NCBI GenBank assembly: GCA_938084845.1
Contig: CALKEB010000046.1
Coordinates: 1-64,000 of the forward strand
Length of the DNA stretch: 64,000 nucleotides
From: an uncultured Polaribacter sp.
GTDB taxonomy: Bacteria > Bacteroidota > Bacteroidia > Flavobacteriales > Flavobacteriaceae
Direction: 5' to 3'
Shown here: piece by piece, positions 35,759-43,583 of the stretch
Layout: every line of letters begins with the position of its first letter
Numbering within the stretch: the stretch's first letter is position 1
The notes under the pieces: generated by a model
What the model saw: only the letters and a program-made list of their open reading frames with translations
What the model was told of the DNA's origin: nothing
Database searches by the model: none
Translations under genes and position numbers: made by a program

Positions 35759-36916
35759 TTAAATACTGACCAGTTGATTCATGATAAGATGAATGTCTTT
35801 ATCTTTTACTTCTTTTTGTTGATCTGCTATTTTTAAAAAAGAAAGATACGCTTCATCTAACTGAATTTTTGTCAATTCGTATCCTACTTTTTTTGCTCTA
35901 TATGCTAGCGCAGCTCTTCCACTTCTTGCTGTTAAAACAATAGCACTTTCGGTAACACCCACATCTTCTGGATTCATAATTTCATAGGTTTCTCTATTTT
36001 TTATAACTCCATCTTGATGAATTCCTGAACTATGTGCAAATGCATTTGCGCCCACAATTGCTTTGTTGGGTTGCACTGGCATTCCCATTTTTTCTCTAAC
36101 CATCATACTCGTATCATACAATAGTTTCTTATTGATACTCGTTTCTAGGTTTAGGTATGGATGCTGGCTTAAAATCATAACTACCTCTTCTAATGCAGTA
36201 TTTCCTGCTCGTTCTCCGATTCCGTTTATGGTACATTCTATTTGACGTGCACCGTTTATAACACCTGCAATTGAATTTGCGGTAGCTAAACCTAAATCGT
36301 TATGACAATGGCAAGATAAAGTTACCCTATCTATCCCTTTTACATTTTCTTTTAAATACTTTATTTTTGCTCCATATTCCTCTGGCAGACAGTAGCCTGT
36401 TGTATCTGGGATATTTAACACTGTTGCTCCTGCTTTAATTACTTCTTCACAAACTTTGGCTAAGAATTCATTCTCTGTTCTTCCTGCATCCTCTGCATAA
36501 AACTCTACATCTTCTACAAAACTTTTTGCATAACTAACTGCTTTTACAGCTCTTTCTATTACTTGATCTCTTGTTGCATTAAATTTATATTTTATATGAG
36601 AATCACTTGTTCCAATTCCCGTATGTATTCTAGGATATTTAGCATATTTTAAAGCCTCTGCTGCTACCTTGATGTCGTTTTCTACTGCTCTCGTTAAACC
36701 ACAAACCGTTGCATTTTTTACTATTTTTGTAATTTCATACACAGATTTAAAATCTCCAGGACTAGAAACCGGAAATCCAGCTTCTATAACATTTACGCCT
36801 AATAAGTCTAATCTTTCTGCAATCACTAATTTTTGAGCAGTATCTAACTTGCAACCAGGCACCTGCTCTCCATCTCTTAAGGTTGTATCAAAAATTTGAA
36901 CTTGATTGTCTTGCAT
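35759..36916 (-). CDS. leuA: 2-isopropylmalate synthase
   Basis: [24 protein letters not shown] track begins at 36988, but a TACTTTTG -7 element lies inside that extension, favouring the ATG at 36916. Confidence 0.93.
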
Positions 36917-37045
36917 GATTAAATTAATTGACTTTATATTTAACCAAAAGTATTTAATGAGTTTAAGATAATTAGTTATTTTTACCATTCTGTACGATTT
37001 CTATTATCTTGTTTAATAGTATAAGTAACTACATATCAATTTATT

Positions 37046-38608
37046 ATGATTAAAAAGCTTACATCAGCCAGCCAACAAAACGATGCTTTATTCGTTTTAA
37101 TTAAGTCTTTAACTAAATCTGAAAAAAGACAATTTAACCTTTATGTAGGAAGGTTAGAAGGTAATGTGGATGCCAAATTCTTCTCCTTATTTAAGTTTTT
37201 AGAAAAACTTAAAGTGTATGATGAAAAAGAAATAATTAAAAGTGGAATTGTTTCAAAACAGCAATTGTCTAATTTAAAAGCACATTTATACAAACAAATT
37301 TTAATTAGTCTTCGATTAAACCCAGCTCATAAAAATATTAGAATCTTAATCCGAGAACAATTAGACTTCGCAACAGTCCTTTACCAAAAAGGATTGTATA
37401 AACAAAGTTTAAAATTGCTAGATAAAGCTAAAAATCTAGCCTTAGACAATGAGGAAAAAAACATCGCTTATGAAATAGTAGAATTAGAGAAAATAATTGA
37501 AACACAATATATTACAAGAAGCTTAAGCAACAGAGCAAATCAGCTTTCTTTACAAGCTAAAACCTTAAGTCAACAAAACGTAATTGCAAGTAAACTCTCT
37601 AACCTATCCTTACAAATGTATAGCCATTTATTGCAAAATGGTTATGTTAAGAATAACAAAGAATTAGAATTTATTAATCAATATTTTTACAGTAAACTTC
37701 CAAAATACAACTTTAAAACCTTCGGTTTTAGAGAAAAACTATGGCTATATAAAAGTCACTTGTGGTTTAGTTTCTTAACTCAAGATTTTTTACACAGCTA
37801 CAAGTATGCTAGCCAATGGGTTGCTTTGTTTAAAGAGGATAAAAAATACATTTCACAACATCCTGTATTTTATTTAAAAGGAATAAACTACCTATTAGAG
37901 GCATCATTTTTTGTCAAAAAAATCTCTACATTTAAAAATGAGCTCATTGCTTTTGAAACAGAAATCGAAGAGAAGGTTATCCCTTCTAACATGAATACAG
38001 ATTTATTAATGTTTCAATATTTATATGCAAACAAACTACACTTACATTTTCTAGAAGCTACTTTTTCTGAGGGTGAATACTTAGTTGATATTATAAATTA
38101 TAAGTTAGAAAAATATCAAGACAGGTTAGATAGTCATTATATTGTAATGTTATACTATAAAATTGCTTGTTTGTATTTTGGAATGGGCAAAAACGAATTA
38201 TGTATTGCATACCTAGAAAAAATCATACAATCAAAAAAACTGAGTTCTGCCGAAGATTTACAGTGTTTTGCAAGAATACTTAATCTTATTGCTCATTATG
38301 AATGTGGATTGGATTATGATTTAGAACGACAATTTATAGAAACCTATAAATTTTTATTAAAAATGGAAAACTTACAAGAGGTGCAAAAAATATTTTTAAA
38401 ATCTATTAGAGACTTAAGCAATGTTTTTCCAGGTGAAATAAAAAGTGAATTCAAAAAAATACATAACAAATTAAAAATATTTGAGGACCATCCTTATGAA
38501 AAAAGAGCTTTTTTATATTTAGATATTCTATCCTGGTTAGAAAGTAAAATACAAAACAAACCCATTGCGACCATCATTAAAGAAAAAATAATATATACAA
38601 ATAAATAA
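37046..38608 (+). CDS. Uncharacterised alpha-helical (TPR-like) cytosolic protein
   Basis: 520 aa; no signal peptide; repeated helical pairs with Leu/Lys/Glu spacing. Confidence 0.6.
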   Translation: MIKKLTSASQQNDALFVLIKSLTKSEKRQFNLYVGRLEGNVDAKFFSLFKFLEKLKVYDEKEIIKSGIVSKQQLSNLKAHLYKQILISLRLNPAHKNIRILIREQLDFATVLYQKGLYKQSLKLLDKAKNLALDNEEKNIAYEIVELEKIIETQYITRSLSNRANQLSLQAKTLSQQNVIASKLSNLSLQMYSHLLQNGYVKNNKELEFINQYFYSKLPKYNFKTFGFREKLWLYKSHLWFSFLTQDFLHSYKYASQWVALFKEDKKYISQHPVFYLKGINYLLEASFFVKKISTFKNELIAFETEIEEKVIPSNMNTDLLMFQYLYANKLHLHFLEATFSEGEYLVDIINYKLEKYQDRLDSHYIVMLYYKIACLYFGMGKNELCIAYLEKIIQSKKLSSAEDLQCFARILNLIAHYECGLDYDLERQFIETYKFLLKMENLQEVQKIFLKSIRDLSNVFPGEIKSEFKKIHNKLKIFEDHPYEKRAFLYLDILSWLESKIQNKPIATIIKEKIIYTNK

Positions 38609-38712
38609 TACATAATTTATTTTTAAACCGATCAAATTTTAAGGATAATTCATTAATTAAGTAAATCAGTAAAATATTTAATACTTTCTTACGGTTACAT
38701 TAATAATACTTC

Positions 38713-38720
38713 TATTTTTG
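38713..38720 (+). promoter_or_regulatory. -7 element of the thr operon
   Basis: TATTTTTG (TAnnTTTG) 4 nt before the leader GTG. Confidence 0.6.
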
Positions 38721-38724
38721 TAAC

Positions 38725-38829
38725 GTGAATTTTAACTTAAATTATAAAATAAACTTAAAAGCTACTTATACAGTAGCAATCACCTCATGCGATTCTATTC
38801 GCACTTCAACGACAACAACAACCCTTTAG
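38725..38829 (+). CDS. Putative thr operon leader peptide (attenuator)
   Basis: GTG-initiated 34-codon ORF ending ...AITSCDSIRTSTTTTTL*, five consecutive Thr codons, immediately followed by AACCC/GGGTT hairpin and pyrimidine-rich tract, about 100 nt upstream of thrA. Confidence 0.6.
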   Translation: MNFNLNYKINLKATYTVAITSCDSIRTSTTTTTL

Positions 38830-38926
38830 GGGTTTACTTTTACACATATCATTTCAGGTTACCATCTATTGCTAAAAGCAATTCAATTATTCATAAATAT
38901 TATTTCGTAAATACTTAAAATTAAAG

Positions 38927-41365
38927 ATGAAAGTATTAAAATTTGGAGGTTCATCTGTAGCCAGCTCAAAAAACATTAAACAAGTACTTAGCATTATTTC
39001 TAACACTTCTAAAGAAGAAAAAATAGCAGTTGTAGTTTCTGCATTTGGTAAAACCACCAATAATCTATTAAGTGGGGCAAATAAAGCTTTAGAAAACTTA
39101 GATGATGCTAAAACTATTTTAACATCGATTAAAAAATTACATTTTAACATTATTAATGATGTAATAAAAACCAATCTTGAAGAAGTATCAGAAGAGGTAA
39201 CAATTCTTTTTAGCAAGTTAAACGCCATTTATGAAGGTATTTTTCTTCTTCAAGAATTGTCTGACAAAACCTTGGCTAAAGTTTCTAGTTTTGGAGAAAG
39301 GTTATCTTCTTACATTATTGCAAATGCAGCAAAAGAAAGTTTAAATGCAACTCATAAAGACAGTAGGGAATTAATTATTACCAATGATATTTATCTAAAT
39401 GCACAAGTTAATTTTAAGAAAACAGATGCATTAATTGCTAGCTATTTTAAAAACAATAAGCATCAAATAACGGTGTTAGGTGGTTTTATTTCTTCTAATA
39501 TAGAAAGCGAAATAACTACTTTAGGTAGAGGAGGTTCTGACTTCTCTGCTTCTATTTATGCTGCGGCTCTAAATGCCTCTGAATTACAAATTTGGACAGA
39601 TGTTTCAGGAATGTTTACAGCAAACCCAACTGTAGTAAAACAAGCACATCCTATTCCAGAAATTTCTTACGAAGAAGCTATGGAACTTTCTCATTTTGGA
39701 GCAAAAGTTTTGTATCCACCAACAATACAACCTGCTTTAAGAAAAGATATACCCATAAAAATTAAAAACACATTTTCACCAGAGAATGAAGGTACCTTAA
39801 TTTGTAAAAATCCGCAAAGTAAAAGTGATGTAAAAGGAATTTCACATATTGATGAAATTAGCTTAATTACTTTAGAAGGTGGAGGAATGATTGGTATTCC
39901 TGGTTTTTCAAAACGTTTATTTGAAGCTTTATCATTAGCACAAATAAATGTGATTTTCATTACTCAAGCATCTTCAGAACACTCAATATGCGTAGGTATT
40001 TATGAAGCTGATGCTGAAAAAGCTAAAGAAGTTTTAGATGCAACTTTTAGCATTGAAATAGATCGTAAGAAAATTAAACCTATTAGTATTGAAAACGATT
40101 TGGCAATTATAGCTGTTGTTGGAGAAAGCATGAAAAATTACCAGGGTTTAAGTGGACAAATGTTTAGTACTTTGGGTAAAAACAACGTAAATGTTAGAGC
40201 TATTGCCCAAGGTTCATCAGAAAAAAACATTTCTGCAGTAATTAATAGTTTTGATGCTAAAAAAGCACTAAATATTTTGCACGAACAATTTTTTGAGGAA
40301 CGCACAAAACAACTTAATTTATTTGTAACCGGAGTTGGAAATGTTGGCGAGCGCTTTTTGGCGCAAATACACCAACAGAAGAAATTTTTAAAGGAGAATC
40401 TTAAACTAAATATTAGGGTTATTGGTATTTCTAACTCAAGAAAAATGTTTTTTGATAAATCTGGAATAAACCTAAAAAACTGGAAAGAATTGTTAGCTAA
40501 TGGTGAAGAAACTTCATTAAGCGCTTTTCATGAGCAAGTAAAAAAGCTAAATTTAAGGAATAGTGTTTTTATTGACAATACAGCTAACAAAAGCGTATCT
40601 GAAGTTTATGCCAACTATTTAAAAGATAGTATTTCTGTGGTAACTTGTAATAAAATTGCTTGTGCTTCTAAATTTAGCAATTATAAAAATTTAAAAAACC
40701 TTTCTAAAAAATACAATGCTTCGTTTTTATTTGAAACCAATGTTGGTGCAGGTTTACCTATTATTGACACTTTAAAAAACTTGGTAAATTCAGGAGATCG
40801 CATTCATAAAATACAAGCAGTTTTATCTGGTAGTTTAAACTTTGTTTTTAACAATTTTAATACAGAAACAACTTTTCATGATGTAGTTCTACAAGCTCAA
40901 AAAGAAGGCTATACAGAACCCGATCCTAAAATAGATTTAAGTGGAATTGATGTTGCCAGAAAAATTTTGATTTTAGCACGTGAAAGTGGATATCAACTAG
41001 AATTAGAAGAAATTAAAAACAATGCTTTTTTACCTGAAGAAAGTTTAAAAACTACAAATAATGATGATTTCTATGGTACTTTAACAAAGAATGAAAATCA
41101 TTTTCAACAGATTTATAGTAAAGCTCAAGAAAAAAATTCACGTTTAAAATATGTGGCTGAATTTACAAATGGACAAGCAAATGTTGGACTACAAGAAATT
41201 CCTGAAGATCATACTTTTTATAATTTAGAAGGAAGTGATAATATTGTATTATTTTTCACAGACAGATATCCAGAAAATCCTTTAATCATAAAAGGTGCAG
41301 GTGCAGGTGCAGATGTAACCGCTTCTGGTATTTTTGCAGATGTAATACGAATTGCAAATCAATAA
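38927..41365 (+). CDS. thrA: Bifunctional aspartate kinase/homoserine dehydrogenase I
   Basis: 812 aa; MKVLKFGGSSVA kinase start, GRGGSDFSAS, homoserine dehydrogenase domain SGSLNFVFNNF. Confidence 0.96.
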   Translation: MKVLKFGGSSVASSKNIKQVLSIISNTSKEEKIAVVVSAFGKTTNNLLSGANKALENLDDAKTILTSIKKLHFNIINDVIKTNLEEVSEEVTILFSKLNAIYEGIFLLQELSDKTLAKVSSFGERLSSYIIANAAKESLNATHKDSRELIITNDIYLNAQVNFKKTDALIASYFKNNKHQITVLGGFISSNIESEITTLGRGGSDFSASIYAAALNASELQIWTDVSGMFTANPTVVKQAHPIPEISYEEAMELSHFGAKVLYPPTIQPALRKDIPIKIKNTFSPENEGTLICKNPQSKSDVKGISHIDEISLITLEGGGMIGIPGFSKRLFEALSLAQINVIFITQASSEHSICVGIYEADAEKAKEVLDATFSIEIDRKKIKPISIENDLAIIAVVGESMKNYQGLSGQMFSTLGKNNVNVRAIAQGSSEKNISAVINSFDAKKALNILHEQFFEERTKQLNLFVTGVGNVGERFLAQIHQQKKFLKENLKLNIRVIGISNSRKMFFDKSGINLKNWKELLANGEETSLSAFHEQVKKLNLRNSVFIDNTANKSVSEVYANYLKDSISVVTCNKIACASKFSNYKNLKNLSKKYNASFLFETNVGAGLPIIDTLKNLVNSGDRIHKIQAVLSGSLNFVFNNFNTETTFHDVVLQAQKEGYTEPDPKIDLSGIDVARKILILARESGYQLELEEIKNNAFLPEESLKTTNNDDFYGTLTKNENHFQQIYSKAQEKNSRLKYVAEFTNGQANVGLQEIPEDHTFYNLEGSDNIVLFFTDRYPENPLIIKGAGAGADVTASGIFADVIRIANQ

Positions 41366-41368
41366 AAA

Positions 41369-42298
41369 ATGAACTATTTAAAAGTATTTTCTCCTGCCAC
41401 TGTAGCAAATGTCTGTTGTGGTTTCGACTCTCTTGGTTTTGCTGTTGATACAGTTGGAGATGAAATGACCTTTACCAAAACAGCTAGCAAAGGGGTAAAA
41501 ATTACTAGTATCACTGGAGCAACCTTATCTTATAATGTAGATGAAAATGCAGCAAGTGCAGTAGTTCAAAAAATGTTGATAGCGGCTAAAGCAGATTTTG
41601 GAGTGGAATTGACTATTTCCAAAGGCTATTCTCCTGGAAGTGGACTGGGTAGCTCTGCAGCAAGTGCAGCAGGTGCAGCTTTTGGAACAAATCAATTATT
41701 CGGTAATATTTACTCAAAATTAGAATTGGTAAAGTTTGCCATGTTTGGAGAAGAAGTAGCTTGTGGTTCACAAATTGCAGATAATGTTGCTGCTGCCATT
41801 TATGGAGGTTTTGTCCTTATCAGAAGTTATGCCCCTTTAGAGATTGTAAAGCTACCTGTACCCAAAGAATTAAGATTGGTGGCCATTCATCCTCAAGTAG
41901 AAGTAAAGACTAAAGATGCAAGAGAGGTTTTACCCAAACAAATTGATTTAAAAGATGCTATTACGCAATGGGCAAATGTTGGTGGATTAATTAGTGGTTT
42001 ATATACAAACGATTATAATTTAATTAGCAATTCTCTAGTAGATATTATTGTAGAGCCATATCGTAAAAAACTCATTCCTTATTTTGATGATGTTAAAAAT
42101 GCAGGTTTAAAATCTGGTGCTTTAGGAGCAGGGATTTCTGGCTCAGGGCCAACCATTTTTGCTCTTTGTAAAGGTGATGCAAGCGCAAGTGATGTTCACT
42201 CAGCAATTAATGAAAGCTACAAAAACACAGGTATAGATTATACTTTATTTACCTCAAAAATTAACAACCAAGGAATTAAAATTTTAGAATCTAATTAA
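41369..42298 (+). CDS. thrB: Homoserine kinase
   Basis: 309 aa GHMP kinase; SPGSGLGSSAASAAGAA. Confidence 0.95.
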   Translation: MNYLKVFSPATVANVCCGFDSLGFAVDTVGDEMTFTKTASKGVKITSITGATLSYNVDENAASAVVQKMLIAAKADFGVELTISKGYSPGSGLGSSAASAAGAAFGTNQLFGNIYSKLELVKFAMFGEEVACGSQIADNVAAAIYGGFVLIRSYAPLEIVKLPVPKELRLVAIHPQVEVKTKDAREVLPKQIDLKDAITQWANVGGLISGLYTNDYNLISNSLVDIIVEPYRKKLIPYFDDVKNAGLKSGALGAGISGSGPTIFALCKGDASASDVHSAINESYKNTGIDYTLFTSKINNQGIKILESN

Positions 42299-42299
42299 C

Positions 42300-43583
42300 A
42301 TGCAATATTATAGTTTACACCATAAATCACCCAAAACAAGTTTTAAAAAAGCTGTAATAGAAGGTTTGGCCAAAGACAGAGGAATTTATTTTCCGGAAGA
42401 AATAACACCTTTAGATACTGCATTTATTCAAAATATTTCAAATTACTCCAATCATGAAATTGCCTTTAAAGTTATTCAACAGTTTGTAGGTAATAATATT
42501 CCTGAGCCTGTTTTAAAAGAGATTATAAAAAAAACACTTACTTTCGATTTTCCTATCGAAAAAATTACAGATCAAATTTCATCACTAGAGCTTTTTCATG
42601 GCCCAACAATGGCTTTTAAGGATGTTGGCGCTAAATTTATGGCGCAATGTTTAGAATATTTCAATAAAGATAATGATGAAGAAGTTACGGTTTTAGTGGC
42701 TACTTCTGGTGATACTGGAGGTGCAGTAGCTAATGGCTTTTTAGGCGCAAAAGGTGTAAATGTGGTTATTTTATATCCTTCAGGAAAAGTGAGTGATATT
42801 CAAGAAAAACAACTTACAACTTTAGGTCAAAATATTACAGCTTTAGAAGTAGATGGTGTTTTTGACGATTGCCAAGAGATGGTAAAAACCGCTTTCTTAG
42901 ATGATGAAATTGAAAGAAAATTAACCTCTGCAAATTCAATAAATATTGCAAGATGGCTACCTCAAATGTTTTACTTTTTCTTTGCTTATAAAGCACTACA
43001 TCAAAAAAAGAAGGACCTAGTATTTTCTGTGCCAAGTGGAAATTTTGGTAATATTTGCGCAGGAATCATGGCTCAAAAGTTAGGTTTACCTGTGAAACAT
43101 TTTGTGGCCTCTACCAATGTAAACGATATTGTCCCTAATTATTTAAAAAGTGGTGAGTATACCCCTAAACCATCTAAAGCAACTATTTCTAATGCCATGG
43201 ATGTTGGTAATCCTAGTAACTTTATAAGAATTAGAGAATTGTTTGATAACGATTTACAACAATTAAGAAATTCATTTTCTTCTTATTCTTTTTCTGATGA
43301 TGAAACTAGAGAAAAAATGCAAGATATTTATGATATTTCTGGCTATGTTTCAGATCCTCATGGAGCTGTTGGTTATTTAGGTCTAGAAAAATATGGTTTA
43401 CAAGAAAACGAAATTGGTATCTTTTTAGAAACTGCACATCCTGTTAAATTTCTAGATGTTGTAGAAAGCACCTTACCTGTTCGTGTTGCAATACCAGAGC
43501 AAATTAAGAAGGTAATTGATAAAGAAAAAGTAGCTTTAAAAATTAGTACTTACGAAGATTTAAAATCTTATTTAATGAAATAA
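42300..43583 (+). CDS. thrC: Threonine synthase
   Basis: 427 aa; HGPTMAFKDVGAKFMAQ, VATSGDTGGAVANGF. Confidence 0.96.
   Translation: MQYYSLHHKSPKTSFKKAVIEGLAKDRGIYFPEEITPLDTAFIQNISNYSNHEIAFKVIQQFVGNNIPEPVLKEIIKKTLTFDFPIEKITDQISSLELFHGPTMAFKDVGAKFMAQCLEYFNKDNDEEVTVLVATSGDTGGAVANGFLGAKGVNVVILYPSGKVSDIQEKQLTTLGQNITALEVDGVFDDCQEMVKTAFLDDEIERKLTSANSINIARWLPQMFYFFFAYKALHQKKKDLVFSVPSGNFGNICAGIMAQKLGLPVKHFVASTNVNDIVPNYLKSGEYTPKPSKATISNAMDVGNPSNFIRIRELFDNDLQQLRNSFSSYSFSDDETREKMQDIYDISGYVSDPHGAVGYLGLEKYGLQENEIGIFLETAHPVKFLDVVESTLPVRVAIPEQIKKVIDKEKVALKISTYEDLKSYLMK

Follow-up and report, generated by a model that had tools for sequence, protein, structure and literature searches.

The thrABC operon of this uncultured Polaribacter sp. 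is preceded by a short open reading frame (ORF) rich in threonine and isoleucine codons, whose stop codon is embedded in a small hairpin. Our results suggest, with a probability of roughly 60%, that this element is a ribosome-mediated attenuator of thrABC responding to Thr and Ile, in which closing of the small hairpin (P2) would be followed by factor-assisted termination. The evidence comes from the layout of the locus, from the conservation of the codon run in related genomes, and from a third hairpin (P3) and a linker motif that an earlier note on this DNA had overlooked.

Layout of the leader and its operon

The following features, all on the plus strand, were located in the window, i.e., the whole stretch of 64,000 nucleotides that was analysed:

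38713..38720, plus strand: -7 promoter element TATTTTTG, fitting the Bacteroidota sigma-A consensus TAnnTTTG
38725..38829, plus strand: thrL-like leader ORF of 34 codons, with a GTG start, a Thr/Ile-rich 3' end and a TAG stop in hairpin P2
38761..38777, plus strand: hairpin P1, GCTACT/AGTAGC, 6 bp, inside the ORF (from folding)
38809..38823, plus strand: regulatory codon run ACG ACA ACA ACA ACC, with five Thr codons here and Thr or Ile codons in relatives
38820..38834, plus strand: hairpin P2 AACCCTTTAGGGGTT, AACCC-UUUA-GGGGUU, overlapping the last Thr codon and the stop (from folding and a pattern scan)
38844..38851, plus strand: linker motif ACATATCA, within the almost G-free segment that separates P2 from P3 (from conservation)
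38868..38882, plus strand: hairpin P3, AUUGCU-AAA-AGCAAU (from folding and covariation)
38927..41365, plus strand: thrA, bifunctional aspartate kinase/homoserine dehydrogenase I (NCBIfam NF006959, 1036 bits)
41369..42298, plus strand: thrB, homoserine kinase (NF002288 and TIGR00191)
42300..43583, plus strand: thrC, threonine synthase (TIGR00260)

The leader peptide of 34 amino acids, as read from the window sequence, is MNFNLNYKINLKATYTVAITSCDSIRTSTTTTTL. Its ORF contains five consecutive and four further Thr codons together with three Ile codons, and its 3' end consists of the five Thr codons, one Leu codon and the stop. The Thr-rich ORF reported by the earlier note is therefore real, with exact coordinates and Thr codon counts, and the same accuracy was found for the TAnnTTTG box and for P1 and P2. 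The gap to thrA (38927), given there as about 100 nt, measures 97 nt. Downstream of the leader, the genes are arranged in the order thrA-thrB-thrC, and thrA would be the first gene under leader control. The leader folds better than its shuffled versions (z = -3.8, 0/200). A hairpin at the position of P1 recurs in relatives with differing sequences and peptides (mean z of -1.7 in 54 genus-group leaders and -0.9 in 82 others), and P1 is possibly a pause hairpin.

The promoter element also indicates where the transcript is predicted to begin. In F. psychrophilum, the -7 box is positioned at -12 to -5 (PMC9723704); therefore, the predicted +1 of the leader transcript is the first base of the GTG, at 38725. 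The end of the box lies 4-5 nt before the leader start codon in 78/83 genus-group loci, in contrast to 4/105 of the others, and the usual spacing from box to start outside the genus group is 9-22 nt. The predicted position of the start codon in the Polaribacter/Tenacibaculum group is +1/+2 of the transcript, which would make the leader ORF itself leaderless, a trait that would be specific to this lineage. Leaderless mRNAs represent only 5.5% of the mRNAs in F. psychrophilum (PMC9723704).

Conservation of the putative sensor ORF across Bacteroidota

Within the same GTDB genus (the Polaribacter/Tenacibaculum group), a leader ORF with a Thr/Ile run was found at 29/29 fully covered thrA loci, i.e., those with enough upstream sequence. 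These ORFs have 27-45 codons, occupy the same place and end in a Thr/Ile-rich run followed by ..TL*. In other Flavobacteriaceae genera, a strict pattern requiring both run and hairpin recovers the leader in at least 79/120, and about 15 more of these 120 show it by eye, while no leader is visible within 450 nt upstream of thrA in about 20% of the family genera. Polaribacter, Tenacibaculum, Flavobacterium, Galbibacter, Seonamhaeicola and Cellulophaga are among the named relatives that bear it, and the Thr/Ile-run ORF is also present in several Bacteroidota families besides Flavobacteriaceae. The earlier note had named loss of the Thr run or of its frame in orthologues as evidence against its reading; neither was lost, and run, frame, position and hairpins are kept across the genus, the family and the further families.

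The composition of the run indicates what is being conserved. In 136 non-redundant leaders, codon columns -1 to -6 hold Thr in 58-75/136 and Ile in 20-55/136, in a frame picked to maximise Thr/Ile, the ORFs having been listed separately from start to stop independently of that choice. Over the seven codons ahead of the hairpin, Thr and Ile swap for each other in these leaders, and this interchange therefore points to selection on the amino acid or the tRNA. In addition, ATA accounts for only 6/229 (2.6%) of the Ile codons of the run, 97% being ATT/ATC, whereas its share is 39.6% elsewhere in the leader and 25% in neighbouring genes. Since ATA is decoded by a different tRNA-Ile, its avoidance in the run is what would be expected of a sensor for one Ile tRNA. 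In contrast to the run, the peptide shows little conservation in its 5' half.

The element is associated with thrA as a single copy. A covariance model built from it gave a single strong match (E < 0.01), located at thrA, in each of the same-genus genomes that hold thrA with its upstream region. No strong match was obtained in G020, which has no thrABC-type thrA, in G007, a partial assembly without a thrABC-type hit, or in G012, where the contig is cut at the locus; two marginal matches with E above 0.02 are likely due to chance. The signature formed by the Thr/Ile run and ACCC..GGG has a single occurrence in the Polaribacter genome itself, and CCCTTTAGGGGTT has two other genomic copies, both away from the thr locus and one within an evident coding region. 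This genome also encodes a second aspartate kinase/homoserine dehydrogenase homologue with 40% identity (G000:C16:132591-134996), whose open frame of 1133 aa exceeds thrA in length by about 320 aa.

No Rfam family covers the thr leader element. Nothing in Rfam matches at the locus, where RF00506 (Thr_leader) gave no hit in 38000-39500 at E up to 1; across the genome, RF00506 has sub-threshold matches only, all away from the thr locus, and the sole match of RF01692 (Bacteroid-trp) is on contig C11 and not at thrA. No comparable leader was found at the neighbouring ilvD/leuB gap or at leuA. The leuA-like gene of the window (35759-36988, minus strand) probably has its long-ORF start placed too early, as TACTTTTG followed by an ATG at 36916 looks like the real promoter and start.

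At the level of sequence, the locus presents the arrangement of leader-peptide attenuation, in which codons for the end product cluster in a short ORF immediately before the operon, and comparative genomics shows the ORF, the codon run, the hairpins, the linker and the target operon. The interpretation as a sensor is well supported, and from its codons we infer the dependence on threonine itself.

Hairpins, linker and the proposed output of the element

In the 136 non-redundant leaders, P2 starts with the last Thr codon and either contains the stop or lies next to it, the codon-0 column being partly fixed by the search pattern. It is thus placed so that the position of the ribosome would decide whether it folds. 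Its sequence is nearly invariant in the genus group and reads ACCCC-UUU-GGGG or similar elsewhere, and covariation of the outer pairs is weak, as only the first of them exceeds the shuffle mean (75 vs 60, shuffle maximum 80). In family f22 (L299-L302), the polarity of P2 is flipped (GGG..CCC), giving ACGGG-GUAA-CCCGU with the stop in the loop. The letters are flipped and the position is kept; therefore, the hairpin and its position seem to matter more than its letters. In two of L299-L302, the loop of these flipped hairpins is GNRA-like.

About 32 nt downstream of P2, the compensatory stem mutations that the earlier note had suggested looking for are present in P3. In 30 genus-group relatives, 26 cells are changed on both sides of the stem against 8.7 expected (0/500 shuffles), all of them from P3, and 88.5% of the P2 and P3 cells are paired in the 30 genus-group leaders. 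A structure-guided alignment of 88 leaders agrees on the covariation of P3, being itself fitted to the structure, and the downstream region folds with a mean z of -1.46 (175 leaders). The linker is also conserved: an exact CATATC is present in 29% of the 136 leaders versus 1.3% after shuffling, G represents 2.2% of the linker bases at offsets 8-19, and the motif recurs in several f18 and f35 loci. P3 was also considered as a terminator and ruled out, as its tails are T-poor (11% vs 19% in the control).

The earlier note proposed textbook attenuation, in which P2 alone would be a Rho-independent terminator, and we consider this unlikely. In the window, TACTTTTA comes after P2, and the pattern scan scores the hairpin as terminator-like, compared with 0.0 in shuffles; family-wide, there is a modest T enrichment after P2, with at least five T in the tail window in 42% of the members vs 25% after shuffling. 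However, the stem has only 5-6 bp and an energy of -5.4 kcal/mol here and about -8 elsewhere, whereas this genome's trp and his terminators, which serve as positive controls, have stems of 12-13 bp, about -15 kcal/mol and a T-run. Moreover, most relatives have no U-tract after P2, and families f35 and f22 retain the hairpin with a U-tract that is poor or absent. An intrinsic terminator with a U-tract was therefore not found before thrA. Similarly, no conserved antiterminator pairing was recovered: with the 5' arm of P2 masked, its 3' arm has no other partner that is conserved, and the diagonals of upstream-downstream pairing are weak (best z 4.4) and inseparable from shared ancestry. The thrL-like attenuation of the earlier note is supported in part, by the conserved run, frame and hairpins and by the covariation of P3, whereas its reading of P2 as a terminator finds no such support and RF00506 does not match the locus.

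The attenuator that we favour could work as follows. The transcript would start at or next to the GTG, judging from the promoter spacing, and the ribosome would initiate at its extreme 5' end. When charged tRNA-Thr or tRNA-Ile(GAU) is scarce, the ribosome would stall in the Thr/Ile run, its leading edge would mask the 5' arm of P2 and keep the hairpin from folding, and RNA polymerase would enter thrABC. When both charged tRNAs are plentiful, the ribosome would reach the stop in or just after P2 and leave, and P2 would close, which would be the off state. In the G-poor linker, the polymerase or the naked transcript would then be acted upon, so that fewer transcripts would reach thrA. This last step is proposed because P2 is weak with a poor U-tract and P3 is no terminator. 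By elimination, since the canonical terminator is missing, factor-assisted termination is most likely, either by Rho or by NusA/NusG helping the weak hairpin.

Alternatively, the output could be post-transcriptional, the translation of the leader altering the processing or stability of the mRNA, by cleavage in the AU-rich P2-P3 linker, or the translation of thrA. A conserved single-stranded motif between two hairpins and a P3 structure kept beside an A-rich unstructured stretch would suit such a role, and the leaderless poly-Cys ORFs of mycobacteria act on downstream translation (PMC9031893). Nevertheless, a switch of thrA start accessibility had to be rejected, as masking of P2 by a stalled ribosome leaves its predicted value unchanged (0.522 to 0.514), and we judge a post-transcriptional output improbable, at about the level of the textbook terminator. 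Finally, a Thr-rich stretch arisen by chance, or a small protein serving its own function, would agree with the poor conservation of the 5' half of the peptide but is very hard to reconcile with the single-copy association with thrA and with a run, frame, position and hairpins kept over genera and families while the remaining peptide varies freely, which is the reverse of what is seen in a functional protein.

Returning to attenuation with factor-assisted termination, we tentatively suggest, with rather less confidence than for the attenuator itself, that the element exemplifies a compact, terminator-less attenuator class. In such a class, a leaderless Thr/Ile sensor ORF, a stop in a small hairpin, the CAUAUC linker and a hairpin conserved only in structure would control thrABC either by way of Rho or through a factor dedicated to this task in Bacteroidota.

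Comparison with known systems

Attenuation by amino-acid leader peptides is a long-known kind of control, and Thr/Ile sensing of the thr operon is its textbook case in E. coli; our results indicate that it is widespread in Bacteroidota, where such control has barely been described. Bacteroidota are a phylum without Shine-Dalgarno use, and a leaderless GTG sensor ORF, as predicted here, would make the ribosome start and its coupling to RNA polymerase testable in them. In the Flavobacteriaceae member F. psychrophilum, strong indications of attenuation by leader peptides ahead of amino-acid operons have been reported in general terms, in main-text passages that name no operon, architecture or conservation (PMC9723704). 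We found no description of a thr leader in Bacteroidota in the openly accessible literature, an entry in the supplementary table of PMC9723704 being possible.

The enterobacterial thrL (RF00506) likewise encodes, immediately before thrABC, a short mixed Thr/Ile peptide followed by hairpins, and the inferred signal is the same, Ile acting with Thr as in E. coli. In contrast, the Polaribacter leader has no RF00506 match and no strong U-tract terminator, its hairpin overlaps the last Thr codon and the stop, whereas that of thrL lies downstream, and its ORF is predicted to be leaderless.

Bacteroid-trp RNA (RF01692; PMC2864571) is also a Bacteroidota leader-peptide attenuator and is present in the same genome (L245), but it differs in its Trp codons, in a larger base structure and in a strong terminator after 12/12 leaders inspected. 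The copy in this genome (L245:1501-1615, contig C11) scores 62.9 bits with a strong terminator after it, and its leader ATG lies about 7 nt after the promoter TTTG, making it nearly leaderless. On contig C59, a His leader ORF MKFIQNHHRHFYNCSQAI (L257:1-200), ending in its stop codon, is followed by a strong terminator, AAACCTGTTTGAGCAAATCAAACAGGTTTTTT, upstream of hisG, and it belongs to no Rfam family at gathering score. Leader-peptide sensing is therefore in use in this lineage, as shown by the trp and his leader peptides.

Leaderless poly-cysteine ORFs of mycobacteria (Canestrari 2020, as cited in PMC9031893 and PMC13236596) share a short leaderless ORF, a codon run for one amino acid, a biosynthetic operon and the absence of a classical terminator scheme. 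As portrayed in those citing accounts, they differ in being actinobacterial, in using Cys codons and in having downstream translation as their output. We know of no P2/P3 unit in these mycobacterial attenuators.

Within the same phylum, family f17 (L293-L296) also carries a Thr/Ile-rich short ORF upstream of thrA. In contrast to Flavobacteriaceae, it has a canonical GC-rich terminator with a T-run and no P2-linker-P3 unit. Therefore, a sensor with a canonical terminator and others with a compact unit in its place can be compared directly within Bacteroidota.
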